64,000 bases of DNA, from positions 1,860,001 through 1,924,000 of the forward strand of contig NC_015388.1 in the NCBI RefSeq assembly GCF_000195295.1. The letters run 5' to 3'. The translations under genes and the position numbers were made by a program. Below are positions 17,720 to 63,850 of the stretch, piece after piece. This DNA comes from Desulfobacca acetoxidans DSM 11109. Lineage in GTDB: Bacteria; Desulfobacterota; Desulfobaccia; Desulfobaccales; Desulfobaccaceae. The number at the start of each line of letters is the position of its first letter. Positions within the stretch are counted from its first letter, which is position 1. Under the pieces are notes generated by a model. That model saw nothing but the letters and a program-made list of their open reading frames with translations. It ran no database searches and was not told the origin of the DNA.

Positions 17720-19549
17720 TCAGCTTAAATTAGACATTTCAGCTATAATTAATGCCCACGGTCTGGTCCAAGATACTATTCCCGCGGCGAAGTCCTGCCA
17801 GACTTGCCGTGCGGCCGGAGTATTAGTTTGAGAAGTAGCCTGCCAGAAACTAGCTTTTTGTTTCAGCCATTCGCCAATGGGGAAAGTGAAAGTCATCTTG
17901 GGGCGATAAACTAGGGTCTGGGGCAAGAACTGGCTCAGAGCCTGGGTGAGCAGCACCTTGGGCACCTTAGGATTAATACGTTCTTTAGGTCTGATAGCCA
18001 ATACAGTGCTGATAAGCAAAGGGTCCAGGAAGGGGACCCGGGTTTCCAGGGAGTGGGCCATGGACATGCAATCCGTGTCCTTCAGAAGCTGGTTCTGCAG
18101 ATACCCATGGATTTCCCATCGGGAAAGCATATCTACGGGATGGTAAGTGCCCATTTGATGAGAATGGCCATCGCCGTTCAAGGGTTGCATTGATGTAGCT
18201 AGACGCTGCACTTCCTTAATCGTGGCATCCGTGAGTTGGGCCACTTCTGCTGGGGAGAATAATCCACGGAGCATAAGGTAAAGTCCCAGAGATCGGTCTA
18301 GACCGAGAAACGCCAGCTTCTGCCATTTGCCGGGGAGGCAACAGGTCAAGCCATTGAGGCTCCTCAGGCAAAAACCCAACTTGCTTATCTTACTTAATAA
18401 ACAAGCACGTTTAAAATGGGGGTAACCGCAAAAGACCTCGTCGCCGCCGGTGCCGGCCAGTACTGCCTTCAAACCGGCCTTTTTAGCCATCAGGGAGACG
18501 AAATAAGTGTTCACCCCATCAATGCTGGGTTGGTCCATGGCTTGAAATACCTTAGGCATTTCCTCTTGAAATAACTCTGACGTGACGGTTAGTTCCCGGT
18601 GATCGGTGTGATACCGCCCCGCAATGAGTTGTTGATATTTTTGTTCGGAATACTCGGCTTCATCAAAAATAATCGACAGAGTGGTAAGCCTCGACTTCTT
18701 GGCAGTGGCCCCCAAGGCCACCAGAGCCGAAGAATCGATGCCGCCGCTGAGAAACAGACCGATGGGGGCATCAGAAATAAGGTGTTGGGCCACAGTCTCC
18801 TGTAACAAATGGCGCATCTCATCGGCTGAGATGGTCTTTTCCTCCCCAATACCATCGGTCCAGAGGTCGTAATAACAATGCATACTTATATGGCCGTTTT
18901 CCACCAGCAGAAAATGACCTGCTGGAATCCCAAGAACCCCCTTTACTGTCGTCATTGGAATGGGAACAGAGCCGAAAAGCAGGAAGACGATAAGAGCGTC
19001 ATGGTTTTTGTGGGGTTGAAAAAGACCCGACTTGGACAGGGCACGCACTTCCGAGGCAAAGGCAATCTTATCCTGGTCCTGGTAGTAGTAGAGGGGCTTA
19101 ATGCCGAAGCGGTCCTTTACCAGGTAGAGTTTGTGACAGTGGCCATCCCATAGGCCAAAAGCAAACATGCCCCGGAAGCGCCGGAAGGCGTCGATCCCCC
19201 ATTCTTCATAGGCATGAATGATTACCTCGGTGTCAGATTGGCTGCGGAAGATATGGCCTAAGCCCAACAATTCTTCTCTCAAGAGTTGGTAATTATAGAT
19301 TTCTCCATTATAGGTAATCCAAATCGAGCCGTCCTCGTTGCTCATGGGTTGGTGGCCAGCGGAAGAAAGGTCGATAATTGATAGCCGCCGGTGTCCAAAG
19401 CCCACCCTGCTGTTGGGGCTCTGCCAGATACCCTCGTCATCGGGGCCGCGATGCGCCTGGGCCTGGTTCATTCTTTCCAGGGCGAATCTGGTACCCTCCT
19501 GAGAAGGAGCATCATTGCAGAGATAGTATATCCCAGCTATACCACACAT
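17720..19549 (-). CDS. asnB: Asparagine synthetase, glutamine-hydrolysing
   Basis: A full-length 609-residue AsnB. After removal of Met1, Cys2 (MCGIAGIYYL) is the glutaminase nucleophile. The amidotransferase domain contains RRLSIIDLSSAGHQPM and YNGEIYNY. The synthetase domain holds the ATP pyrophosphate loop SGGIDSSAL, and GTGGDEVFCGYPHF follows. It makes asparagine from aspartate, ATP and glutamine. Members of this family in polysaccharide clusters (like WbpS or AsnB-like proteins) often amidate a sugar carboxylate instead, so the role here may be glycan amidation. It is the first gene of the cluster in transcription order and follows a heptamer-repeat region. Confidence 0.92.
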   Translation of the reverse strand: MCGIAGIYYLCNDAPSQEGTRFALERMNQAQAHRGPDDEGIWQSPNSRVGFGHRRLSIIDLSSAGHQPMSNEDGSIWITYNGEIYNYQLLREELLGLGHIFRSQSDTEVIIHAYEEWGIDAFRRFRGMFAFGLWDGHCHKLYLVKDRFGIKPLYYYQDQDKIAFASEVRALSKSGLFQPHKNHDALIVFLLFGSVPIPMTTVKGVLGIPAGHFLLVENGHISMHCYYDLWTDGIGEEKTISADEMRHLLQETVAQHLISDAPIGLFLSGGIDSSALVALGATAKKSRLTTLSIIFDEAEYSEQKYQQLIAGRYHTDHRELTVTSELFQEEMPKVFQAMDQPSIDGVNTYFVSLMAKKAGLKAVLAGTGGDEVFCGYPHFKRACLLSKISKLGFCLRSLNGLTCCLPGKWQKLAFLGLDRSLGLYLMLRGLFSPAEVAQLTDATIKEVQRLATSMQPLNGDGHSHQMGTYHPVDMLSRWEIHGYLQNQLLKDTDCMSMAHSLETRVPFLDPLLISTVLAIRPKERINPKVPKVLLTQALSQFLPQTLVYRPKMTFTFPIGEWLKQKASFWQATSQTNTPAARQVWQDFAAGIVSWTRPWALIIAEMSNLS

Positions 19550-53045: not shown

Positions 53046-55412
53046 ATGTCTGGCGGGAAACTGAGTGAATCGTGGCGATCGGCGCTGACCAGGCTTGCTT
53101 CCGGCTGGAGGGGAAAAATGGAGCTGCTCTCTAAACTGGCGCATGTAGCGTTTCTGTTCTTCCTAACTATCTTATTTTTATACATTATCTTTAAATTAGG
53201 ACTGAGCGCCTACCGGGTCTTTTCCCCCGCCCAACAAATCGACCTGGAATATACCGACAGCGCCAAGACCGACCTCAAGGAAGAACTGCGCACCCGCTGG
53301 CGAAAATGTCTACAACCCATCAGGCTGGAGAGGTTCCAGGAGATTCCCCTTGCCCTGCCGGAGTTGCCCTATATCTTTAAGCCTGCGAAAAAAGACGTCT
53401 TTCAGGACATAAATCTCAAGATTCACGATGTGGATTTTTCCTCGCTATATCAGAAATTCAGCAGTGTCTTCCTGCCTTCCGGCTATAGGGTCATTATCAG
53501 AAAGAGCGTCAAAGACGGCAAGGTCGAACATCTGGATATGAGCCTGGAGTATGGGACGGAAGTTCTCAAATCCTGGCATTTGCCTAGACATCTTATCTGC
53601 GAAGACTGGGAGATAAAGCTGCAGGAAAAGAAAAAGGAGGACTTTAAAGCTGTCCTCGGGGAGGCGGCCGGCAATGGGACGGCCCAATTGCTGCGGGATG
53701 ACGAAGATTTCCTGATCAATCACGCCTTCTACGAACTTTATTTCTACCTGTATTTTGACCCGGACAATAAAGATCATAAATTCAAAAGGGGCGATAAAGA
53801 AGAGCATCACCAGTTTCCCAGCGGCGCCGCCCTCTGCGCCTATTACACCGGCATCCGGCATCTCAATAACTACCAGCAGTATGGCAATCAGGCCGAGTTA
53901 AATCAAGCCCTCAGATTTTTCCAGATTTTCCTGGCGGAATATCCTGGCTGCTGGCATGGCGCCCTCCTGTATGGCATGGCGCTGGCCGAAAACCGGGATG
54001 AACCGGGGGCGGTGGCGGCGTATGGGAAGGTCATAGAGCAGTTAGGAAGAGAGATAGAGGAAAATGCAAAAGAAATTTCGGCATTAAATAAAGTTACTGT
54101 ACCTTCCAATGATCAAATTGTTGGAAAGCAGAAAAGAGAAGAGGAAAATAGGAATTTAACTCTCGTTAAACTACAGGCGCAACTTTGGCAGGCGATGGCC
54201 TTGAGAAGACACTATGGTTGGAAGACTACACATAAGGCAATAAGTGATCTAAATGGATTTATTACAGGGATTGATAAACCAGAAAATGCGCTAATAGGTG
54301 AGGTCAATAAAAATAAATTAAAGGTGTATGCCTATATAGAACTAGCCAGCGCCTATATTGATTATCTCTATATCTTCTTTCCCAACCGGCTGGAAGATAT
54401 GCTAATGGCTTTGACGGATATATCGGCCCCTTCTCAAGTGAAAATAAGTGGTGTAATCAAGAATTGCATTGAACAGAGTGTTCAAGGCTTAAAAGAGGGT
54501 AGACCTGATCTGATTCATTGGCTCCAGGTAAATATTGTAATTGGAAGGATTTATCACCAATATTCCGACAACATTTCCGAGGCTCTGAAAGTTAAAGCAG
54601 GTATACAGGGGGAAGCTTCGGAAGAACGGGAAAAAATTAACCTGGACTGCCGCCTGAACAATGCCGCGGGTTGCGCCTGGTTTCTCCGAGCCAATTGGGA
54701 GGAGTTGGGACGGCAGGCATATCGGGGTGATTGTCAAACAGCCTTAAACTACTTGAACCAGGTCCAGCTTGACGACCCCCAGCATTACACCACGTTGCTG
54801 AACCTGGGTATGATTTATATGGACCCCTGGTTTGACCCCTGTGGTGAGACGCTGGCCATCGCCCATGATTATATCTGGCGGGTGACGCTTTTAAAGCCCA
54901 ACGACCCCTTCGGTTTCGAGCAGTTGGCCTATGTCTATCGGAAACAGGCGGAGGTCAACGGCGCCGGTCCGGATATGTCCGGCATCATTGACCAGGGCAT
55001 TGCAGCCGCCAAGAAAGCTTTGGCCCTGCGGCCCCAGTCAGGAGACGCCTTCCTCACTCTGGCGGAATTGTACGTGATGAAGTTTCTTCTTTTAGGCAAA
55101 ACTGCGGATGGAAGTGAAATAGAAAGCAATATTATCAACTACCTGAACCAAGCGACGGTTTTGGAGAGTTTGAATCCGCGGCTGCATTGGACCAAGTTTG
55201 TCTGGAAAACCGCCAAATTAAAGCGGGCGGCCGATGCAGCGAAGCTCAAGGATATACAAAAAGAAATTAAGGAGCAGGCTGATAAGTTGGCAGCCCCTAA
55301 AACCCCCCAGTTTCGGCATTACCGGGAGAAGCTTCTGGCCCTGGCCGAGAGGATTAAGCCGGATCAGCCCGAAGAGAGTCAGGTTTTTACCGCATCGGTG
55401 GCATCGTTTTAA
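53046..55412 (+). CDS. Membrane-anchored TPR protein
   Basis: From ATG at 53046 (AAGGTG six bases before) 788 residues; an earlier frame start at 52863 adds about 61 residues unlike a protein. Residues about 35-58 are a single membrane helix (VAFLFFLTILFLYIIFKLGL). The rest is soluble, with a charged region and multiple TPR-like helical pairs in the middle and C-terminal half (RFFQIFLAEYPGCWHGALLY; TTLLNLGMIYMDPWFDPC; ALRPQSGDAFLTLAELYVMK). It probably scaffolds proteins at the membrane. The family is not recognised. Confidence 0.75.
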   Translation: MSGGKLSESWRSALTRLASGWRGKMELLSKLAHVAFLFFLTILFLYIIFKLGLSAYRVFSPAQQIDLEYTDSAKTDLKEELRTRWRKCLQPIRLERFQEIPLALPELPYIFKPAKKDVFQDINLKIHDVDFSSLYQKFSSVFLPSGYRVIIRKSVKDGKVEHLDMSLEYGTEVLKSWHLPRHLICEDWEIKLQEKKKEDFKAVLGEAAGNGTAQLLRDDEDFLINHAFYELYFYLYFDPDNKDHKFKRGDKEEHHQFPSGAALCAYYTGIRHLNNYQQYGNQAELNQALRFFQIFLAEYPGCWHGALLYGMALAENRDEPGAVAAYGKVIEQLGREIEENAKEISALNKVTVPSNDQIVGKQKREEENRNLTLVKLQAQLWQAMALRRHYGWKTTHKAISDLNGFITGIDKPENALIGEVNKNKLKVYAYIELASAYIDYLYIFFPNRLEDMLMALTDISAPSQVKISGVIKNCIEQSVQGLKEGRPDLIHWLQVNIVIGRIYHQYSDNISEALKVKAGIQGEASEEREKINLDCRLNNAAGCAWFLRANWEELGRQAYRGDCQTALNYLNQVQLDDPQHYTTLLNLGMIYMDPWFDPCGETLAIAHDYIWRVTLLKPNDPFGFEQLAYVYRKQAEVNGAGPDMSGIIDQGIAAAKKALALRPQSGDAFLTLAELYVMKFLLLGKTADGSEIESNIINYLNQATVLESLNPRLHWTKFVWKTAKLKRAADAAKLKDIQKEIKEQADKLAAPKTPQFRHYREKLLALAERIKPDQPEESQVFTASVASF

Positions 55413-55571
55413 ACTTAAAAGGGGTATTCCAAGGCAATCGGTTAGCGCTCCGCCCCGGAAACCCGCACGCAGCCGATACCTTGCCAAAGTTTGAGCAGGA
55501 AGGCAAAATAATTTTACCAAGGCAGGATCATTCCTTCACTACATTAACGTTAATTTTCAGGAGGGCCGCAG

Positions 55572-56039
55572 ATGGATAGGCAAAGGCTGAGCAGCAAGGA
55601 ATTGCAGCGAACACGTTGTTTCCTGGGTCTCTTGGTTATCATCCTAACCGTAGGGCTAGGCGGCTGCGCCACCATCTCACCCTACAGCGCCACGGCCTAC
55701 GAACAGGCCACGTCCCTGAAAGCCGAGGCCCTCGTCCTTATGGGTAAGGCCACCGAACCCTATTCGCAGCATCAAACCCAGGTAGAGGCTTTGAAACTCA
55801 ACCTTGAGAAGGCTTATGAATACGCCAAGGGAAGGCCGAAGAACGAATTATCCATCCGGCAATGGGAAATCCTCAAAGATCCGGAGCGGCATTCCCTCGG
55901 GGGGTTCTTAAAGCGTTGGCAGCAGGAATCCAGCCTCCGGCCGGCGTTTGTACAAGAGGCCAAAGAGCTGGTGGCCGATCAATTCGATGCCATTATCGGC
56001 CTGGAGTCAGGTAAGCCCAAAACTGCAGGAACAAAATAA
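55572..56039 (+). CDS. Putative lipoprotein
   Basis: A 155-residue protein with basic N-terminus, hydrophobic segment and lipobox LGGC around residue 32. The mature part has YEQATSLKAEALVLMGKATE and LEKAYEYAKGRPKNE, coiled helical segments, then a DPERHSLGGFLKRWQQES stretch. GGAGGG precedes the ATG. The gene is followed after six bases by a small gene of similar style. Function unknown. Confidence 0.7.
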   Translation: MDRQRLSSKELQRTRCFLGLLVIILTVGLGGCATISPYSATAYEQATSLKAEALVLMGKATEPYSQHQTQVEALKLNLEKAYEYAKGRPKNELSIRQWEILKDPERHSLGGFLKRWQQESSLRPAFVQEAKELVADQFDAIIGLESGKPKTAGTK

Positions 56040-56045
56040 ACAGGC

Positions 56046-56393
56046 ATGGGAGACAAGACTATGTCCGATTTCGATAGATTTTTGCAGCTTTTTACAGATG
56101 GCGTCAAAGATCTGGCTCAAAAGGAGTTCAGCGAGTTCGTGCAGGCCGCCCTGGATGACGGTGTGTCCTTTATGACAAAATTCAAGAGTGATGTGGAAGA
56201 ATGGGGAATGAAGTTGGCCCGGGGCGAAATGACCGCGAATGATGTCGAATGGCTTATGCAGGGGAAAAAAGATCTCGCCGAAATGAATGCCCTGAAACAG
56301 GCCGGTCTGGCGCAGGCAAGAATTCAGGAGTTTGTGAACGGCGTCCTTAAAATCGCTTCGGAATCGTTGGTGAAGGTGTTTCTGCCCTCGTAG
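56046..56393 (+). CDS. Small helical protein of unknown function
   Basis: About 115 residues (or 110 from the internal ATG 15 bases in, MSDFDRFLQLF), nearly all amphipathic helix: FTDGVKDLAQKEFSEFVQAA, then GMKLARGEMTANDVEWLMQG. There is no signal peptide or membrane helix. The start is ambiguous because both ATGs lack a strong ribosome site. It is six bases downstream of the lipoprotein gene, and the two probably act together. Confidence 0.65.
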   Translation: MGDKTMSDFDRFLQLFTDGVKDLAQKEFSEFVQAALDDGVSFMTKFKSDVEEWGMKLARGEMTANDVEWLMQGKKDLAEMNALKQAGLAQARIQEFVNGVLKIASESLVKVFLPS

Positions 56394-56529
56394 GATGATT
56401 TGTCGGGCTGACCCTAGAAATCGCTGAGAATCAGCGATCATGTCAGCAACGACTAGAGAAACGGATTGCCAGACCGAGGCGGGTTCGCCCCGCCCGGTCG
56501 GGAACCTGACCTAAGAAAGGATTGCTACC

Positions 56530-57006
56530 ATGCCGACCCCAACTGAACTGCTTCCTGATCCGAATAAGGATTTCGCCGAACATTCCGATCTGCAGTTGTT
56601 AGCTATGGCTCTCTTCGGCGAAGCCCGGGGCGTCCCCAAACCGACGCGCCAGGGCATCGGACATGTGATGATCAACCGCGCCCTCCACCCCGGCTGGTGG
56701 GGCAGATCCCTCAAAGAGGTTATCCTGAAGCCCTGGCAGTTTTCCTGTTTCAATCAGAACGATCCCAATTATCGTAAACTCAGAAGTCCCTTGCAATATA
56801 AAACAGCAGAGGTTTGGGACAACTGTTGTCGGGATGCCATCGAGGTGATGGCGCGCGTAAATCAGCCAAACCTTTCCGACCCGGTCAGGGGTGCCAACCA
56901 TTACTACGACACCTCTATCCCCTCGCCCAACTGGGCGGACGAGAGTAAATTTGTATTGGCCCTCCCGGCCCGTTCCGGCCATGAGGTCCGGTTCTACAAA
57001 CTCTAG
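56530..57006 (+). CDS. SleB-like cell wall hydrolase
   Basis: A 158-residue protein of the SleB/Hydrolase_2 family: LLAMALFGEARGVPKPTRQG, then GHVMINRALHPGWWGRSLKE, and WQFSCFNQND. Known family members are N-acetylmuramoyl amidases or lytic enzymes in spore cortex or phage. The key Glu is in GEARG. No signal peptide is seen, so it would act in the cytoplasm or be released by another means. It is the last of four plus-strand genes from 53046. Confidence 0.82.
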   Translation: MPTPTELLPDPNKDFAEHSDLQLLAMALFGEARGVPKPTRQGIGHVMINRALHPGWWGRSLKEVILKPWQFSCFNQNDPNYRKLRSPLQYKTAEVWDNCCRDAIEVMARVNQPNLSDPVRGANHYYDTSIPSPNWADESKFVLALPARSGHEVRFYKL

Positions 57007-57655: not shown

Positions 57656-57895
57656 ATGCCAATGTGGCGCGATGTTTTGATCTGCACGGTGGGCATCAGC
57701 CTTAAAGCCGATCTGGAGAGACAGGCTGCCCCCGACTGTCGGCAAGACCTCGAGCGGTGTTATGCCAAGGGGGTGGCTAAAAAACTTTTGGCCCTGAATC
57801 CGGATGATCGCCTCTGCGGGTCTGAAATCAACTGCACGAGGCCACTTTATGATCGCCTCTGCGGGTCTGAAATCAACTGCACGAGGCCACTTTGA
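57656..57895 (+). pseudogene. Truncated CARF (CRISPR-associated Rossmann) gene
   Basis: The frame starts MPMWRDVLICTVGISLKADL after GGGAGA. The LICTVGISL segment is the N-terminal strand-loop of CARF domains in the APE2256/Csx family, and KGVAKKLLALNPDDRLCGSE fits the next helix. The frame then runs through a 45-bp duplication and stops after 79 residues. A whole CARF domain needs about 150 residues and an effector domain follows, so this cannot be active. It is probably the remnant of a cyclic oligoadenylate receptor or ring nuclease. Confidence 0.7.
57804..57893. repeat. Exact 45-bp tandem duplication
   Basis: Two identical copies, 57804-57848 and 57849-57893 (unit atgatcgcctctgcgg to aggccacttt). 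The unit holds the end of the CARF homology and non-homologous DNA before cas6. It is divisible by three and has an ATG in the cas6 frame in each copy. Confidence 0.95.
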
Positions 57896-57917
57896 TGGGG
57901 AGAATTGCCGCCAAAAA

Positions 57918-58916
57918 ATGAACCCAAAATTGCCATTACAATATATGCCTTACGGGAAATACCGTTTTTTTGCCTCTTTCGAAGCTGAGGCCCTGCTGCC
58001 GCCTTTTAAGGGCTCCACCTTTCGTGGGGTCTTTGGGGTGGCCCTGAAGAGGGTGGTCTGCCCCTTAAGGGGGCGGGAGTGCCTGGATTGCCTGCTGCGG
58101 CGTCAATGTGTGTATGCCCGGGTATTTGAAAATCTGACGACCAGAGGGGATAAAGCACCTTCGCCGCCCCATCCTTTTGTTATTGAACCCATGCCGGGCG
58201 AGGCAACCCGTTTTTATCCCGGAGATCCGTTTGCATTTACTTTGCTGCTCTTTGGCTGGGCCAATGACTATCTGCCATATTTTGTCTATGCCTTCGAGGA
58301 GATGGGCAAGATCGGCATCGGCAGGCATATAAACGACAGGCGCGCCGGATTCAGGTTAGATCGGGTGGAGCTTGGGGATGAGGTGGTGTATGACGGCAGG
58401 GAGCAAAATCTGGTGAAAAAAAGTCCGTCCAAGCTTTTTCTCGGGGAAAGGGAAGCTGATGGTTCAGTTTCGGCCATTACCCTGCTTTTGCAGACGCCGA
58501 TGCGGTTGAAATTCCAGAATTCTCTCAAAGCAGAACTGCCCTTTCATGTGCTGATCCGGGCCTGCCTGCGCCGCATCGCCACCCTCAACCAACATTATGG
58601 GGCAGGGGAACCCGCTCTGGACTACCGCGGCCTGGTGGCCCGGTCCCAGGCAGTGGCCATTCGCCGCGCCGACCTGCACTGGTATGATTGGCGGCGCTAT
58701 TCCAACCGGCAGGACCAGGGGATGCTCATGGGAGGGATGGTGGGGTCCATAACCTATAGGGGGGACTTAGCGGAATATATGCCGCTGCTCAAGTATGCCG
58801 AGAAAGTTCACCTCGGCAAGGCGACGACGTTCGGGTTGGGGAAGGTGCGCTTCCATATTGATGATAAGAAGTATTTAACAAATCCTGTGGAGCTAAAAAA
58901 TGTCAAAAAATTATAG
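57918..58916 (+). CDS. cas6: Cas6-family pre-crRNA endoribonuclease
   Basis: From ATG at 57918 the protein has 332 residues. It starts NPKLPLQYMPYGKYRFFASF and FKGSTFRGVFGVALKRVVC, a RAMP fold, and ends with the glycine-rich loop HLGKATTFGLGKVRF typical of Cas6. CPLRGRECLDCLLRRQCVY holds four Cys and probably a zinc or structural site. Cas6 cuts the CRISPR transcript into guide RNAs. Longer in-frame starts in the upstream duplication (57804, 57849) would add repeated residues. It overlaps cas10 by 17 bases. Confidence 0.85.
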   Translation: MNPKLPLQYMPYGKYRFFASFEAEALLPPFKGSTFRGVFGVALKRVVCPLRGRECLDCLLRRQCVYARVFENLTTRGDKAPSPPHPFVIEPMPGEATRFYPGDPFAFTLLLFGWANDYLPYFVYAFEEMGKIGIGRHINDRRAGFRLDRVELGDEVVYDGREQNLVKKSPSKLFLGEREADGSVSAITLLLQTPMRLKFQNSLKAELPFHVLIRACLRRIATLNQHYGAGEPALDYRGLVARSQAVAIRRADLHWYDWRRYSNRQDQGMLMGGMVGSITYRGDLAEYMPLLKYAEKVHLGKATTFGLGKVRFHIDDKKYLTNPVELKNVKKL

Positions 58917-61509
58917 AAATATTTTCCTCATTCAATTAGGAGGTCTCCTCCATGATATAGGAAAGCTTTTGCAAAGGGCAGAAGTCAAGATTGATAATTT
59001 CGCAAGATATATAGAGGATTTTTGCCCTAAAAATAATAAAGATCAACCCACACATCTCCATGCTGCATATTCAGCTTATTTCATGGAAAAACATCTTCCT
59101 GCTCAAATAATACCAGATTATGAAAGGGGTATTCTGTACGAGGCCTGCCGGCATCACCGGAATAGCTCTGACGATATTTTTGTCAAATCAGATCGTCTCT
59201 CTGCGGGTGAACGATATGTCGAGATAAGTAAAGAAAAACCTCATTATAAAACTGTGCCCTTTCGCTCTGTATTTCCTTTTGTTGAAATTAATTACGCGAT
59301 AAGGTCAAAAAACGAATGCGTTCCATATTGGTTCCACAATCCCAGGAAATTAAAAGGGGCCGAAGAATTATATCCGCATTTCTCCTCAAATATCCCTAAA
59401 ACAGATTTGGTTCAGAAATATCAGCAAATATGGAAAGGATTGCAGCAAGATATTGAGGAATTACCCGTTGATCTGACATTAGAGCATTTTCTTTTGGAGA
59501 CTTTCTATCTCTTACAAAAATATTGTTGGGCAATACCTTGCGATACCACCAGGGAATTTGCCGATATATCCTTGTTTGATCATATGCGGACCACTGCTGC
59601 CTTTGCCGGTTGTTTAGCTATCGGGAGACAAGAAGGATTCTTGCAGGGAAAAGAGTTCTTATTTGTTACAGCAGATATTTCTGGGATTCAAGACTTTCTT
59701 TTCAGGTTGGCCAGAGCCGAAGGGGTAGGTGGGATTTCCAAAAGGCTTCGAGGGAGGTCTTTCTATCTGAGTATGTTATCGGAAATTTTAGGCCGTTATC
59801 TTCTCAACAGCACCCACCTATCACCAGCGAACCTATTGTTTTGCGGGGGCGGAAATCTGGAGATGCTCTTGCCGAATACGGCCAATATACAAAAATTATT
59901 GTCAGAACTAGATTACGAAGTAAATCAATGGTTGTTAGAAAGGTTTGGGGGGGAGCTGCAACTTGTTATTGCAGGGCAGGAAGCGGCGGCAAAAGAAGTT
60001 TCTTTGGCATATACCAAAATAAAAGCACAAATGGCTCAAAAATTATCTCTGTGTAAACGACAAAAAATAAAGCCGATTCTTAAATATCAACAAAACTGGC
60101 TTTATCCACAGCAAACCAGGGACTTGATCATTCGATGCCCCTCCTGCCGCATTACCCTAATAACAGAAATTGAGGAGATTTGTCGAGACTGTAAACTTCA
60201 CCGCCGGATTGGTGAAAAGCTGCCGGATTCACAGTGGCTTCTATTTGCGCCGTCTAACTTCAAAAAATACCGGGAGGAAGAAATCAAAGATGCGCTTTGG
60301 GTAGATTATGGGAAGTTAGGATCGGTGATCCTTTTAAGTGGTGATAATCTGGTTGAGGAAAAAAGAAACCAGCTTTGGGACTACCAGGCAATCAATCATT
60401 ATAGACCTCGCTCCTCTGCCCTTACATATCTAACCCAGCAATTGCCAAGAGCCTTAGAACCTTTAGAATTGACGACTGAAAAAGATGACTCCGGAGATTT
60501 TTTTGTCGAGTCGGGGCAGGTATTGAGTTTTACCACATTGGCCGATATGAGTTATGGAGACAAACTCTTAGGCGTTTTGAAAATGGACGTTGATTATTTA
60601 GGAGCCATTTTTGCCCATGGGCTGGGGCCTATAGAAGCTCAAACAACGGTAGGAAAGGAAGATTTACGCTCCATCTCCCGGCTGGCGACTTTGAGTCGGA
60701 TGTTCTCCTGGTTCTTTCAATCTCAAATCAATCGCCTTTGTGAAGAAGTATTTCAGGAATGGAAAATTACCAGTTCATACCCTTTCAAAGGTTCAATCAG
60801 TCAAATATTCTATACTGTCTTTGCCGGGGGGGATGATCTTTTTGTCATCGGCCCCTGGGACCAAACACTGGAGTTGGGGCGTAAAATTAGAACTGCATTC
60901 AAAGAATATACCTGTCATAATCCCAACCTGACTATTTCAGGTGGAATGATCTGCTGTAAACCCAAATACCCCATTAATCTAGCAGCCAGAGAGGCCGAAG
61001 AGGCCTTAAAAGAGGCCAAAAAATTAGGGAAAAATCGATTTTGTCTATCTGGGCAGGCGGCAGTATGGGACCTAGAAGCACCGGAAAGCGTGGCAAACTT
61101 AGAGGATTGGCAGCAAGTTTATTACGGCTTCGAGGACCGGGAAATAAGACGAAGCAGAGACTTTTTCGGAAACAGGAGTAAGACATTAAAGGAGCTATTG
61201 GATTGGGGGGAACTTCTTATGCGATGGCTTCAGGAGAAAAAGATAGCCCGCCGACTGCTTCACCGATTATTGCTGGAAGTTAAGTCAATTTTAAAAGAAA
61301 GTAGTCAAGAAAGAGAAGATAAACCCCAAAAATCTGCCATACTAAAACTTTTTCCTTTTCTGGCTTATCAACTGGCCCGAAATGTTAAAGACCCGGAGGT
61401 GCGGCAAACCTTACATGCCCAACTCATTACTTCCAATAATTTATCCGATTGGTTGCATCAATTGCCGCTGCCCCTGATATACATACTCAACAAATCACGG
61501 CAGCATTAA
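58900..61509 (+). CDS. cas10: Cas10/Csm1, large subunit of the type III-A complex
   Basis: A full-length 869-residue Cas10. An HD nuclease motif is at residues 18-19 (GGLLHDIGKLL), for cutting single-stranded DNA. A zinc site lies in CPSCRITLITEIEEICRDC, about residues 412-430. The palm domain has FAGGDDLFVIG, GGDD at 643-646, for cyclic oligoadenylate synthesis. ATG is at 58900. Both activities are probably intact. The adjacent receptor gene at 57656 is broken, so signalling must use another receptor. Confidence 0.95.
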   Translation: MSKNYRNIFLIQLGGLLHDIGKLLQRAEVKIDNFARYIEDFCPKNNKDQPTHLHAAYSAYFMEKHLPAQIIPDYERGILYEACRHHRNSSDDIFVKSDRLSAGERYVEISKEKPHYKTVPFRSVFPFVEINYAIRSKNECVPYWFHNPRKLKGAEELYPHFSSNIPKTDLVQKYQQIWKGLQQDIEELPVDLTLEHFLLETFYLLQKYCWAIPCDTTREFADISLFDHMRTTAAFAGCLAIGRQEGFLQGKEFLFVTADISGIQDFLFRLARAEGVGGISKRLRGRSFYLSMLSEILGRYLLNSTHLSPANLLFCGGGNLEMLLPNTANIQKLLSELDYEVNQWLLERFGGELQLVIAGQEAAAKEVSLAYTKIKAQMAQKLSLCKRQKIKPILKYQQNWLYPQQTRDLIIRCPSCRITLITEIEEICRDCKLHRRIGEKLPDSQWLLFAPSNFKKYREEEIKDALWVDYGKLGSVILLSGDNLVEEKRNQLWDYQAINHYRPRSSALTYLTQQLPRALEPLELTTEKDDSGDFFVESGQVLSFTTLADMSYGDKLLGVLKMDVDYLGAIFAHGLGPIEAQTTVGKEDLRSISRLATLSRMFSWFFQSQINRLCEEVFQEWKITSSYPFKGSISQIFYTVFAGGDDLFVIGPWDQTLELGRKIRTAFKEYTCHNPNLTISGGMICCKPKYPINLAAREAEEALKEAKKLGKNRFCLSGQAAVWDLEAPESVANLEDWQQVYYGFEDREIRRSRDFFGNRSKTLKELLDWGELLMRWLQEKKIARRLLHRLLLEVKSILKESSQEREDKPQKSAILKLFPFLAYQLARNVKDPEVRQTLHAQLITSNNLSDWLHQLPLPLIYILNKSRQH

Positions 61510-61521
61510 GGAGGCGGTATT

Positions 61522-61935
61522 ATGGACGTGAAAAAAATCATTGATGAGATCAAAGAGAAGAATCAATTCAGTCAAATAACCATCGAGGAATTCGCTCCGG
61601 AAGAAGGATGGGCCAATAGCATTGCTAAAGAATTAAAAGACAAGAGGCGTCAGTTGCGCAAAGTTTTTGCTCAGATAAAAGATATTGAGAAAAAAATAAA
61701 AAAGATGAACGAACAGGATGAGTTAAATGAGCCAAAAATTTTTCTAATACTCCCTCAAGTCGCTTATGCCCGGGGACGAAATTTAATTCCGGTAGATTTT
61801 TATAATTTAATAAAAATAATTATAGGAACAAAGGGCAAAGGAACCAAATTGAAAAAAGTGGAGGATTTTCGCCGGTTCACTGATTTCATGACAGCAGTTG
61901 TAGCGTACTCAACCCTTTACGCTGACAAAAAATAA
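61522..61935 (+). CDS. csm2: Csm2, small subunit
   Basis: A 137-residue, helical and lysine-rich protein. LPQVAYARGRNLIPVDFYNL and FRRFTDFMTAVVAYSTLYAD match the conserved parts of Csm2. It makes the second filament of the type III-A complex around target RNA. GGAGG precedes the ATG at 61522 by about nine bases, and cas10 ends 12 bases upstream. Confidence 0.9.
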   Translation: MDVKKIIDEIKEKNQFSQITIEEFAPEEGWANSIAKELKDKRRQLRKVFAQIKDIEKKIKKMNEQDELNEPKIFLILPQVAYARGRNLIPVDFYNLIKIIIGTKGKGTKLKKVEDFRRFTDFMTAVVAYSTLYADKK

Positions 61936-61962
61936 TACCATATACGTTGAGGAGATATTACG

Positions 61963-62811
61963 ATGGCAAGCAACAAAAAACCTGATTTTACTTTCCATGG
62001 AAAATATATTATTAATGCCGAACTATTGCTTTTGACCGGTATGCATATCGGCGGTTCCACTGAAGGTTTTGAGATAGGTGGTTTGGACAATCCGGTCATT
62101 AAAGATCCCATTAGCGATGTTCCATATATTCCAGGATCCTCTTTGAAAGGAAAGATGCGTTCTCTTTTAGAATGGGCCTATGGATTAGTTACCATTAAGC
62201 AAAATGAGAAAACCAGTCTTTGGGAAGGAGAGCTTTGCTCGGACGCTGAAAAAGATCTGGCCATAGTCTTTGGCGTGCCGGCAGAAGAACATCCAAAAGC
62301 CTCGCTACCCCCAGGTCCCACCAGGCTGACAGTCCGGGATGCCTATCCAAAAGGTTTTGAGGCAGGCTCGGACACCGTGGGTGAACAGGTGACCAAATGG
62401 GAAAGAGACATGGGGGAAGGAATCTACACGGAAATTAAATATGAAAACGCTATTGACCGACTAACCTCAGTAGCCAACCCACGTCCTATGGAAAGGGTGC
62501 CGGCCGGCTCGCGGTTTGAGCTTCAGTTTATTTATGATGTTTATCAAAATAAGGATATTGCCCGTCTCAAGCTTCTCTTCGAAGGACTTAGATTATTAGA
62601 AGATTCTGCTTTGGGAGGGGGAGGATCCCGCGGCAGCGGCAGGATAAAGGTAGAAAGTATTTCAGTTGGAGCGCGGGAGCGATCATATTATTTGGGGGAG
62701 AAAACCCAAGATGAAAAGAAACTAACACTAGAATGTCCAAAAGATGGAGTTGGCTTGGAAGAGATCTTGAAAAATTTCTCGACGCATTTTCCTTCCGGCG
62801 CAGGAGATTAA
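61963..62811 (+). CDS. csm3: Csm3, backbone RAMP and target-RNA nuclease
   Basis: A 282-residue RAMP protein. LTGMHIGGSTEGFEIGGLDN carries Asp42 (GGLDNPVIKDP), matching the catalytic Asp of Csm3. IPGSSLKGKMRSLLEWAYG is the family GSSLKGK motif and ALGGGGSRGSGRIKV the glycine-rich loop. It binds the guide RNA and cuts the target RNA at six-base steps. It ends one base before csm4. Confidence 0.95.
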   Translation: MASNKKPDFTFHGKYIINAELLLLTGMHIGGSTEGFEIGGLDNPVIKDPISDVPYIPGSSLKGKMRSLLEWAYGLVTIKQNEKTSLWEGELCSDAEKDLAIVFGVPAEEHPKASLPPGPTRLTVRDAYPKGFEAGSDTVGEQVTKWERDMGEGIYTEIKYENAIDRLTSVANPRPMERVPAGSRFELQFIYDVYQNKDIARLKLLFEGLRLLEDSALGGGGSRGSGRIKVESISVGARERSYYLGEKTQDEKKLTLECPKDGVGLEEILKNFSTHFPSGAGD

Positions 62812-62812
62812 C

Positions 62813-63850
62813 ATGCCAACGTACGAAGTATGCCTCTGGCCTCGAAGCAGTTTTGAATTTGTGCCTCGGGCTGAGACCCTGTTTGGCGCCATCTGCTGGA
62901 CCATTCGTAGCTTCTGGGGGGAAAATAAGTTAACCGATATCCTGGCGGAATTTTCCCGAAAACCACCCTTCCTCCTGAGTAGCTCCTTCCCTTGCCAACG
63001 TCTGCGCTCTGGAAAAATTATCCACTACCTGCCTCGCCCTATTCTGCGGCCTTTGTCTCTGAACGATATCGTTGGCTGTTGCACTGAGGCTAAACCGGAT
63101 CATAAAGGATTGAGTTATGACTCTCCCGGACAAAGCGCCTTTACCTGGATTATGGAACAATACAAACAATGCAGAAAAATAGCATTCATCACTTCCGCGG
63201 CTCTGGATTTATTCTCCTCTGCCTCCGATGAACTTCCACTTTTTAAGGCCTTTCTTGAAGGTCAGCTCCAGGAACCGAAATGGCGATCGAATCAAGGGAT
63301 GGCTAAGACAAAGATTGATCGGCTGGGGCAGGCAACCAGCGGGGCAGGAAACCTATTTTTCCAGGAAGAACAGTTCCTCTCCCAAGGGTGGGGCCTATAT
63401 TTTTTGGTGCGGACTGATCATTGGAGTGATTTGATTTACCCAGTTTTCCGTTTTTTGGAGGACAGCGGCATCGGCCGCAATGCCCATACCGGCCGAAATC
63501 AATTTCGCCTGGAATGGACCGCAGAACCAGATTGGCTTCCTTCCGGGAAAGGTCCACGATTTATTTGTTTATCTCCTTATTGTCAGAATATTGGTGATGA
63601 TATTGATTGGGACGCTTCGACGTATGGGGTGAAATCATTTCAAGGTGCGGTGGAAAGCCGGGAGGAATTTGCCGGCAGCCCCGTTTGGAAAAGGAGATTT
63701 CTCATGGTCCAGGAAGGGTCTTGCTTAATAGCGAGTCAAGTTAAGGACTACTATGGATGCCTGGTGCCCAGTTCAGAAATCAAGGGCAAGACGGTCTACA
63801 CCTATGCTATAACCTGGCCTTTACATCTAGACATGCCAAAGGAGGATTAG
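62813..63850 (+). CDS. csm4: Csm4, RAMP holding the guide-RNA 5' handle
   Basis: A 345-residue RAMP protein. It starts PTYEVCLWPRSSFEFVPRAE and LFGAICWTIRSFWGE, Csm4-like, with DSGIGRNAHTGRNQFRLEW as the glycine-rich region near residues 220-238. It caps the complex and binds the 5' tag of the guide RNA next to Cas10. One base separates it from csm3, and five bases from csm5. Confidence 0.92.
   Translation: MPTYEVCLWPRSSFEFVPRAETLFGAICWTIRSFWGENKLTDILAEFSRKPPFLLSSSFPCQRLRSGKIIHYLPRPILRPLSLNDIVGCCTEAKPDHKGLSYDSPGQSAFTWIMEQYKQCRKIAFITSAALDLFSSASDELPLFKAFLEGQLQEPKWRSNQGMAKTKIDRLGQATSGAGNLFFQEEQFLSQGWGLYFLVRTDHWSDLIYPVFRFLEDSGIGRNAHTGRNQFRLEWTAEPDWLPSGKGPRFICLSPYCQNIGDDIDWDASTYGVKSFQGAVESREEFAGSPVWKRRFLMVQEGSCLIASQVKDYYGCLVPSSEIKGKTVYTYAITWPLHLDMPKED

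Follow-up and report, generated by a model that had tools for sequence, protein, structure and literature searches.

Introduction

Bacteriocin operons of the colicin type carry an immunity gene and a release lipoprotein, which is tiny in the colicins, and the lipases of type VI secretion systems have periplasmic lipoproteins as immunity proteins. Phage spanins comprise Rz/Rz1 and the u-spanins. In this study, we analysed a 64,000-nucleotide stretch of Desulfobacca acetoxidans DSM 11109 (contig NC_015388.1, positions 1,860,001 to 1,924,000; hereafter the window), in which two adjacent genes encode a lipoprotein and a small helical protein. The same two genes recur in other bacteria, repeatedly beside unrelated envelope enzymes. 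As in colicin-type operons and with the type VI lipases, a leaderless toxin-like enzyme then stands beside a small soluble protein and a lipoprotein; the difference is that the pair stays the same while its enzymes are many and unrelated. As in phage spanin and endolysin cassettes, the lipoprotein gene can lie beside an endolysin gene, at some loci in tailocin-like or prophage-type lysis regions. Unlike spanins, the pair has a helical partner devoid of transmembrane (TM) helices and a larger lipoprotein of predicted globular shape; an endolysin is often missing, and no match to the pair was found in the phage records searched.

Csx23 of Vibrio cholerae is described in the text of PMC11014256 as having two predicted TM helices at the N-terminus and a 91-residue cytoplasmic C-terminal domain, which has a PB1/ubiquitin-like fold by that study's DALI search and binds cyclic tetra-adenylate (cA4). 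The lipoprotein of the pair resembles the protein described there in the name that PADLOC gives it, in similar length, in N-terminal membrane attachment and, in one genome, in a type III CRISPR-Cas neighbour. It differs by a predicted lipid anchor and helical bundle in place of TM helices and a PB1-like cA4-binding domain, by a second gene that is always present, and by the lack of a nearby Cas10 in 10 of 11 records. Extracellular contractile injection systems (eCIS), whose particles are released by lysis according to the text of PMC8213781, have toxins with immunity genes (PMC8213781, PMC11297309). Four of our loci (L092 and L104-L106) likewise put the pair beside eCIS_core, but carriers of the pair show no genome-level excess of this domain. 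The word 'lipoprotein' is absent from the main texts of both papers. A literature search gave no title or abstract opening on such a lipoprotein/helical protein pair, and no paper naming PADLOC and Csx23 together.

Results

Lipoprotein and helical protein genes occur together at all 52 loci

The lipoprotein (155 aa) is encoded at 55572..56039 on the plus strand of the window and the helical protein at 56061..56393 on the same strand. The two genes were found together, on the same strand and with the lipoprotein first, at 52/52 loci including the window, a linkage far beyond chance. Besides the window, the loci are L013, located via the helical protein and recovered again by lipoprotein alignment; six more found by that alignment in genome contigs; two located via the lipoprotein in the phylum of genome G401; one IMG/VR record (L026), located via the helical protein; and, all via the helical protein, 25 new loci in the phylum of genome G398 plus 16 from two families there. 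Altogether, 43 loci were located via the helical protein, each with the lipoprotein upstream, and eight via the lipoprotein; L107 and L108 lie in the same genome and were counted as two. The intergenic gap is at most 54 nt, except for 393 nt in L108, and four large negative gaps are artefacts of over-long open reading frame (ORF) starts. One further IMG/VR record, L025, was left out: its 152-aa ORF, which reached 22 bits against the lipoprotein profile, had no helical partner and is followed by a large ORF that is terminase-like by eye.

A preliminary description of the window had proposed a four-gene envelope module with this pair in the middle. All four plus-strand ORFs are present at the positions given there, and the middle two proved to be linked. 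The outer two, a TPR gene and a hydrolase gene, have no match at the 51 other pair loci and fail the linkage check that the description had set. It had also placed the middle genes six bases apart, with the helical protein starting at 56046 (115 aa). This start is probably wrong: in the aligned relatives, the start falls on the position matching 56061 (MSDFDR) or close to it, and GGGAG stands upstream of the ATG there. From this probable start, the protein has 110 aa and the gap is 21 bases.

Both proteins of the pair are predicted to be all-helical

The lipobox cysteine of the lipoprotein is invariant at all 52 loci. The protein has one hydrophobic stretch, which ends in LGGC at this cysteine, the pattern of a lipoprotein signal peptide. 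The residue after the cysteine is Asp at one locus; by the sorting rule for this position, the other 51 are compatible with sorting to the outer membrane. The AlphaFold2 model of the lipoprotein consists of helices only, with a mean predicted local distance difference test (pLDDT) score of 85.0 and pLDDT >90 over residues 41-140; that of the helical protein also consists of helices only (mean pLDDT 90.2). Both models were built from nine-row alignments. The earlier call of a lipoprotein fits the lipobox, and its mature part, which had been called coiled, is modelled as a bundle of helices. No hydrophobic stretch was found in either protein beyond the lipoprotein signal, and no window of the helical protein exceeds 1.6 in hydrophobicity (maximum 1.14).

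Neither protein was recognised by Pfam, NCBIfam or PHROGs, in agreement with the earlier statement that the middle two belong to no recognised family; PADLOC, on the other hand, names the lipoprotein Csx23. The helical protein matched Pfam Phasin_2 weakly (E 0.012), and a scan of eight members, among them the trimmed window protein, did not reproduce this match. In fold searches with the models, the best Foldseek E was 0.81 for the lipoprotein and 1.3 for the helical protein. The best VIA matches were the NarQ sensor for the lipoprotein (Z 11.6, root-mean-square deviation 2.6, 104 residues) and AFV1 ORF140 for the helical protein (Z 6.8, root-mean-square deviation 3.3, 89 residues). For both modelled proteins, such matches are within the range that helical bundles give without kinship, and no solved structure stands out.

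The pair recurs beside unrelated envelope enzymes

We collected the 71 same-strand ORFs of at least 90 residues within 300 bp of the pair at the 52 loci. At 19 loci such a neighbour is a wall or lipid hydrolase, eCIS_core or DUF6765, and at 18 if DUF6765, which has no known function (L010), is set aside. The window has a Hydrolase_2 neighbour. Patatins stand at L061, L063, L069 and L070, with a patatin-type fragment at L009 that is homologous to that of L061 and missed by Pfam; the patatin-type neighbour of L109 was assigned by motif only, Pfam sees none, and this partner has many hydrophobic stretches. Amidase_2 is found at L063 (of the same kind as the tested copy of L061), Amidase_3 at L107 and L110, Peptidase_M15_4 at L069 and L076 (tested) and at L072 and L074 (by homology), and PGAP1- and DUF676-type lipases at L067 and L100. 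Finally, eCIS_core adjoins the pair at L104 (tested) and, by homology, at L092, L105 and L106; one eCIS_core representative also carries PG_binding_1 by Pfam. The partner enzymes were judged leaderless from their N-termini.

At many loci the pair and the unrelated enzymes are separated by gaps of about -17 to 17 nt. The patatin gene begins 3-5 nt after the helical protein gene in L069 (8470-9504) and L070 (9886-10920), and the pair begins 4-5 nt after an M15 endolysin gene in L072, L074 and L076. On a quick tree of the pair, which leaves 12 of its 49 inner branches open, the fewest changes needed were 13 for neighbour type ('none' included) and 10 for presence or absence of a neighbour. The number for neighbour type suggests that the pair is constant while the enzyme is exchanged.

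In three groups of loci, proteins with signal-peptide-like starts and hydrophobic segments (by eye) are encoded just upstream of the pair (L013 9209-9826, L081 9899-10780 and L056 8094-8978). No Pfam family was found in them, and they are possibly a third, looser partner.

Tailocin-like, eCIS, defence and orphan contexts

In genome G1006 (L102, L076 and L103), the pair belongs to an element that also encodes tail sheath, baseplate hub, baseplate and holin proteins. We call this element tailocin-like, as no capsid, portal or terminase ORF was recognised in it by eye; a 141-aa protein encoded in it has matches to families of two kinds, 'major head protein' (E 7.7e-22) and tail (E 2.4e-20). In L068, genes for a prophage-type holin, a DUF5675 protein and a lipoprotein resembling a spanin (by eye) precede the pair. 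L104 and L105 are eCIS clusters by Pfam, with a contractile injection system tape measure (CIS_TMP) near the pair in L104 and an AAA ATPase and a Muramidase near it in L105; L106 and L092 hold eCIS_core homologues. In the genome of the window itself, about 0.1 Mb away (G000:C1:2020492-2025372), one open frame of 2322 residues has two eCIS_core matches, so that this genome may carry eCIS cargo of its own.

The pair of L058 is preceded by a type IIG restriction enzyme gene and a 249-aa ORF and followed by SIR2 and HerA. Clear defence neighbours were seen only there and in the window, with a weak case in L113; the PADLOC scan covered 10 neighbour proteins of six loci and was not a systematic search. 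The patatin of L069 matches PADLOC phospholipase effectors (E 3.6e-63), and no cyclase gene was noticed alongside by eye. L075, L077 and L080 have no enzyme beside the pair, which is flanked there by dinB-like and dnaX-like genes; dnaX also adjoins it in L078 (all of these names by eye).

The pair is patchily distributed across at least four phyla

Members of at least four phyla hold the pair. Within the window's own family, only its own genome of seven has it, and in its phylum 2/395 genomes do. The corresponding counts are 3/398 in the phylum of Amphritea and 27/296 in that of a Balneolaceae metagenome-assembled genome, each with the centre genome included; two families of the latter phylum gave 11/149 and 10/92. 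The lipoproteins of Chlorobium, Balneolaceae, Desulfobacteraceae, Planctomycetota, Amphritea and Desulfacinum are 47-54% identical to that of the window. Together with the patchy spread, this suggests horizontal transfer. A tblastn search of 50,697 phage records with four pair queries gave no match, and neither did one of plasmids with five. Four scans of IMG/VR gave one true pair locus, L026, in a viral record with an ORF that is tape-measure-like by eye.

The name Csx23 and the CRISPR neighbour

PADLOC model PDLC01072 ('Csx23') matches the window lipoprotein over its full length (E 3.2e-49). It matches in 8/8 pair genomes, with 164 bits for the window protein and 31-81 bits for the relatives, and from this difference the model was probably seeded by the window protein. 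PDLC01072 also matches in Bacteroides ihuae, one of 14 control genomes.

We compared the lipoprotein with the published description of V. cholerae Csx23. Its predicted topology is a single hydrophobic stretch ending at the invariant cysteine, not two TM helices, and its model has helices only in place of a PB1-like fold. A search of PDB chain sequences with the lipoprotein gave one match, which is not Csx23. A Cas10 palm domain was found near the pair in one of 11 records, that of the window's genome (G000:C1:1920568-1921041, E 8.4e-37), and over the cut-off anywhere in four of the 11, some weak enough for other cyclases; several of these records are draft genomes limited by contig breaks, and the other loci were read by eye. 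Predicted topology, predicted fold and linkage speak strongly against a CRISPR/Csx23 reading of the lipoprotein, and the name Csx23 probably covers two different proteins.

The first genes of the type III-A operon of the window (Cas6-like, Cas10, Csm2-, Csm3- and Csm4-like ORFs) lie at 57804..63850 on the plus strand, starting about 0.8 kb past the hydrolase gene; subunit names other than Cas10 were assigned by eye. The preliminary description had considered a defence role conceivable from this neighbour. With Cas10 near the pair only in this genome among the 11 records, such a role is not supported by the neighbour, and the proximity is probably a coincidence. At 57804-57893 lies a perfect 45-nt tandem duplication, with a doubled MIASAGLKSTARGHF start in the Cas6-like ORF. 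About 10.8 kb past the window end, downstream of the operon, L006 contains a CRISPR array (17754-18841, or about G000:C1 1,934,754-1,935,841) with at least 15 repeats of a 36-nt unit (CTCAGAAACATTGACC...) at a spacing of 68-77. Near it, at L006 15200-17200, tandem repeats with a 14-nt unit of the type CGGCTCACGGCTTA / CCGTGAGCCGAGAG are densely packed.

The TPR gene and the window hydrolase

The gene upstream of the pair (53046..55412, plus strand) encodes a TPR-type, membrane-anchored protein of 788 aa with one strong hydrophobic stretch at residues ~25-58. Its frame is open from 52863, and all of its TPR matches are under the Pfam cut-offs. The protein had no match in 177 other genomes of the phylum and so is found in one of 178, its own; this lineage-specific neighbour lies outside the conserved unit. 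Downstream of the pair, 56530..57006 (plus strand) encodes a SleB-type cell-wall hydrolase. As described previously, it belongs to a recognised family (Pfam Hydrolase_2, E 6.6e-11, 43.2 bits against a curated cut-off of 27) and has no signal peptide; no hydrophobic segment was found in it. The SleB equivalog model gave 24.4 bits, far below its cut-off of 236.5. The hydrolase is phage-endolysin-like: it matches PHROG endolysins, it is 33-40% identical to the ten best phage matches among 39 matching records, several of them annotated as endolysins, and its identity to the Pseudomonas phage PAJU2 endolysin is 40%.

Neither the TPR protein nor the window hydrolase had a tblastn match in the DNA of the 51 other pair loci. 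This absence, together with the single genome holding the TPR gene, rules out a conserved module of four genes with the TPR protein. The four genes may form a local operon, and promoter- and terminator-like sites in the window speak clearly neither for nor against it. The hydrolase appears to be a local, exchangeable partner enzyme, and the TPR gene and the CRISPR operon are most likely bystanders.

Discussion

We observed a fixed pair of genes with a lipid-anchor site, a repeated adjacency to unrelated envelope enzymes at about a third of the loci, and a patchy spread. Our preferred reading, which we hold tentatively, is that the pair is a mobile two-gene envelope module often accompanying envelope-attacking enzymes and most likely protecting the producer or recipient cell from them. 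The lipoprotein would be attached to the periplasmic side of the outer membrane, guarding the wall and the membrane from there, and the helical protein would act in the cytoplasm or at the inner membrane and guard the cytoplasmic side, the two acting jointly. The partner enzymes would be made in the cytoplasm without export signals and set free by lysis or injected. These enzymes are endolysin-type wall hydrolases, patatin-type phospholipases, lipases and eCIS_core cargo, represented in the window by the phage-type Hydrolase_2 endolysin. An effector-immunity cassette would lie immediately beside a leaderless toxic enzyme; a candidate neighbour was seen at 19/52 loci, DUF6765 and eCIS_core included. 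The effect of the pair would be protective and not lytic. A broader form of this idea appears rather unlikely: the pair would act in two compartments as a module of protection (or release) that accompanies envelope-degrading weapons and does not depend on the kind of enzyme. In at least two phyla, the same two proteins would then serve amidases and peptidases of the wall, SleB-type hydrolases, patatins and other lipases as well as contractile-injection cargo, and orphan copies, in these phyla and elsewhere, would give general tolerance to them.

Several points weigh against protection tied to the enzymes. Known immunity proteins are usually specific, and this pair would have to counter chemically unrelated enzymes. 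At 33/52 loci no such enzyme stands on the same strand within 300 bp (one of them, L008, begins at a contig edge), and enzyme neighbours occur in only two of the four pair-holding phyla. In favour of the link, homologues of the enzyme and eCIS_core queries make up 23 of the 71 adjacent ORFs (24 with the SIR2 protein) and one of 478 farther ORFs, an eCIS_core ORF about 4 kb from the L104 pair; this contrast is biased, as 14 of the 23 are the queries themselves, drawn from the adjacent set. A motif panel pointed the same way, with 20/71 adjacent and 29/478 farther ORFs (odds ratio 6.1, p 2e-7), and without the eCIS_core and DUF6765 motifs this falls to 12/71 against 28/478 (odds ratio 3.3, p 0.0025); the panel was composed after the neighbours were known, and its matches in both sets include chance ones. 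Both contrasts are uncorrected for relatedness. Greedy ORF picking gave spurious ORFs in GC-rich loci (e.g. L013, L014, L056, L066, L073 and L078), which blurs the adjacent and control counts, and one control ORF (L104 14566) has patatin motifs that the homology queries missed. At the genome level, eCIS_core was found in 7/27 carriers and 12/52 non-carriers; the comparison took all 27 carriers of the 296-genome sample and, from the 269 non-carriers in it, the 52 with the lowest numbers, while the four genomes whose pairs adjoin eCIS_core belong to a different sample and are not part of it. The same counts weaken the candidate role of an eCIS-dedicated adaptor.

The preliminary description had suggested wall remodelling, secretion or lysis. 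Such a link finds some support, in a different form, in the unrelated wall and lipid hydrolases, eCIS_core and the tailocin-like and prophage-type flanks at other loci, though not at the 33 loci without such a neighbour. A further explanation is unlikely but carries some weight, namely that the pair is a release or lysis helper for leaderless endolysins, lipases or contractile particles; it could, for instance, disrupt the outer membrane once the inner membrane is opened, standing in for a spanin. The close spacing after M15 endolysins, in L076 within the tailocin-like element, would fit this, as would the holin and spanin-like genes before the pair in L068, the viral record L026 and the pairs in the eCIS clusters L104, L105 and, by homology, L106, where particles are freed by lysis in the account of PMC8213781. 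On the other side, L068 already has its spanin-like protein (by eye), and 33/52 pairs have no enzyme next to them. For the outer-membrane lipoprotein of a two-component spanin beside an endolysin, the picture is mixed: the lipoprotein signal is present at 52/52 loci, endolysin-type neighbours at some. The inner-membrane partner of a two-component spanin has an N-terminal TM helix, and the pair has no hydrophobic stretch besides the lipoprotein signal; the match of the lipoprotein to an Rz-like PHROG (spanin) is just E 0.11. The lack of matches in the 50,697 phage records argues against a core role in phage lysis, and the chromosomal orphan pairs of L075, L077 and L080 fit protection better than lysis; for these two reasons we regard protection as somewhat likelier than help in lysis. 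It is likewise unlikely, though plausible in outline, that the pair is independent cargo, an envelope-acting anti-phage or superinfection-exclusion module that lands in the same hotspots as the enzymes (prophages, tailocins, eCIS ends, defence islands and CRISPR flanks). The patchy spread, the loci without an adjacent enzyme, the restriction and SIR2-HerA genes around L058, the viral record L026, the type III-A flank of the window and the phospholipase-effector match at L069 all suit such cargo, and it gains slightly, at the expense of protection, from the weakening of the motif contrast without the eCIS_core and DUF6765 motifs. The short gaps and the adjacency contrasts, biased as they are, suggest joint expression instead, and clear defence neighbours are confined to two loci in the limited scan.

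Two explanations taken from the window itself fare worse. A four-gene module with the TPR protein as scaffold would explain the common strand and modest gaps there, and the lack of the outer genes at the 51 other pair loci makes it very improbable. Improbable in the extreme is a Csx23-type membrane effector triggered by cA4 from the adjacent type III system: the full-length PDLC01072 match and the operon nearby speak for it, and against it stand the bit scores that look as if the window protein had seeded the model, the all-helical prediction and invariant lipobox, as opposed to the TM helices and PB1-like domain given in the text of PMC11014256, and the single record with Cas10 near the pair.

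The PADLOC Csx23 model labels lipoproteins that are probably other than V. cholerae Csx23, and surveys may count them as false CRISPR effectors. If the protective reading of the pair is true, one unnamed gene pair would flag leaderless envelope enzymes and contractile weapons and offer a route to new ones, and it would point to a principle of immunity or release that is independent of the enzyme.

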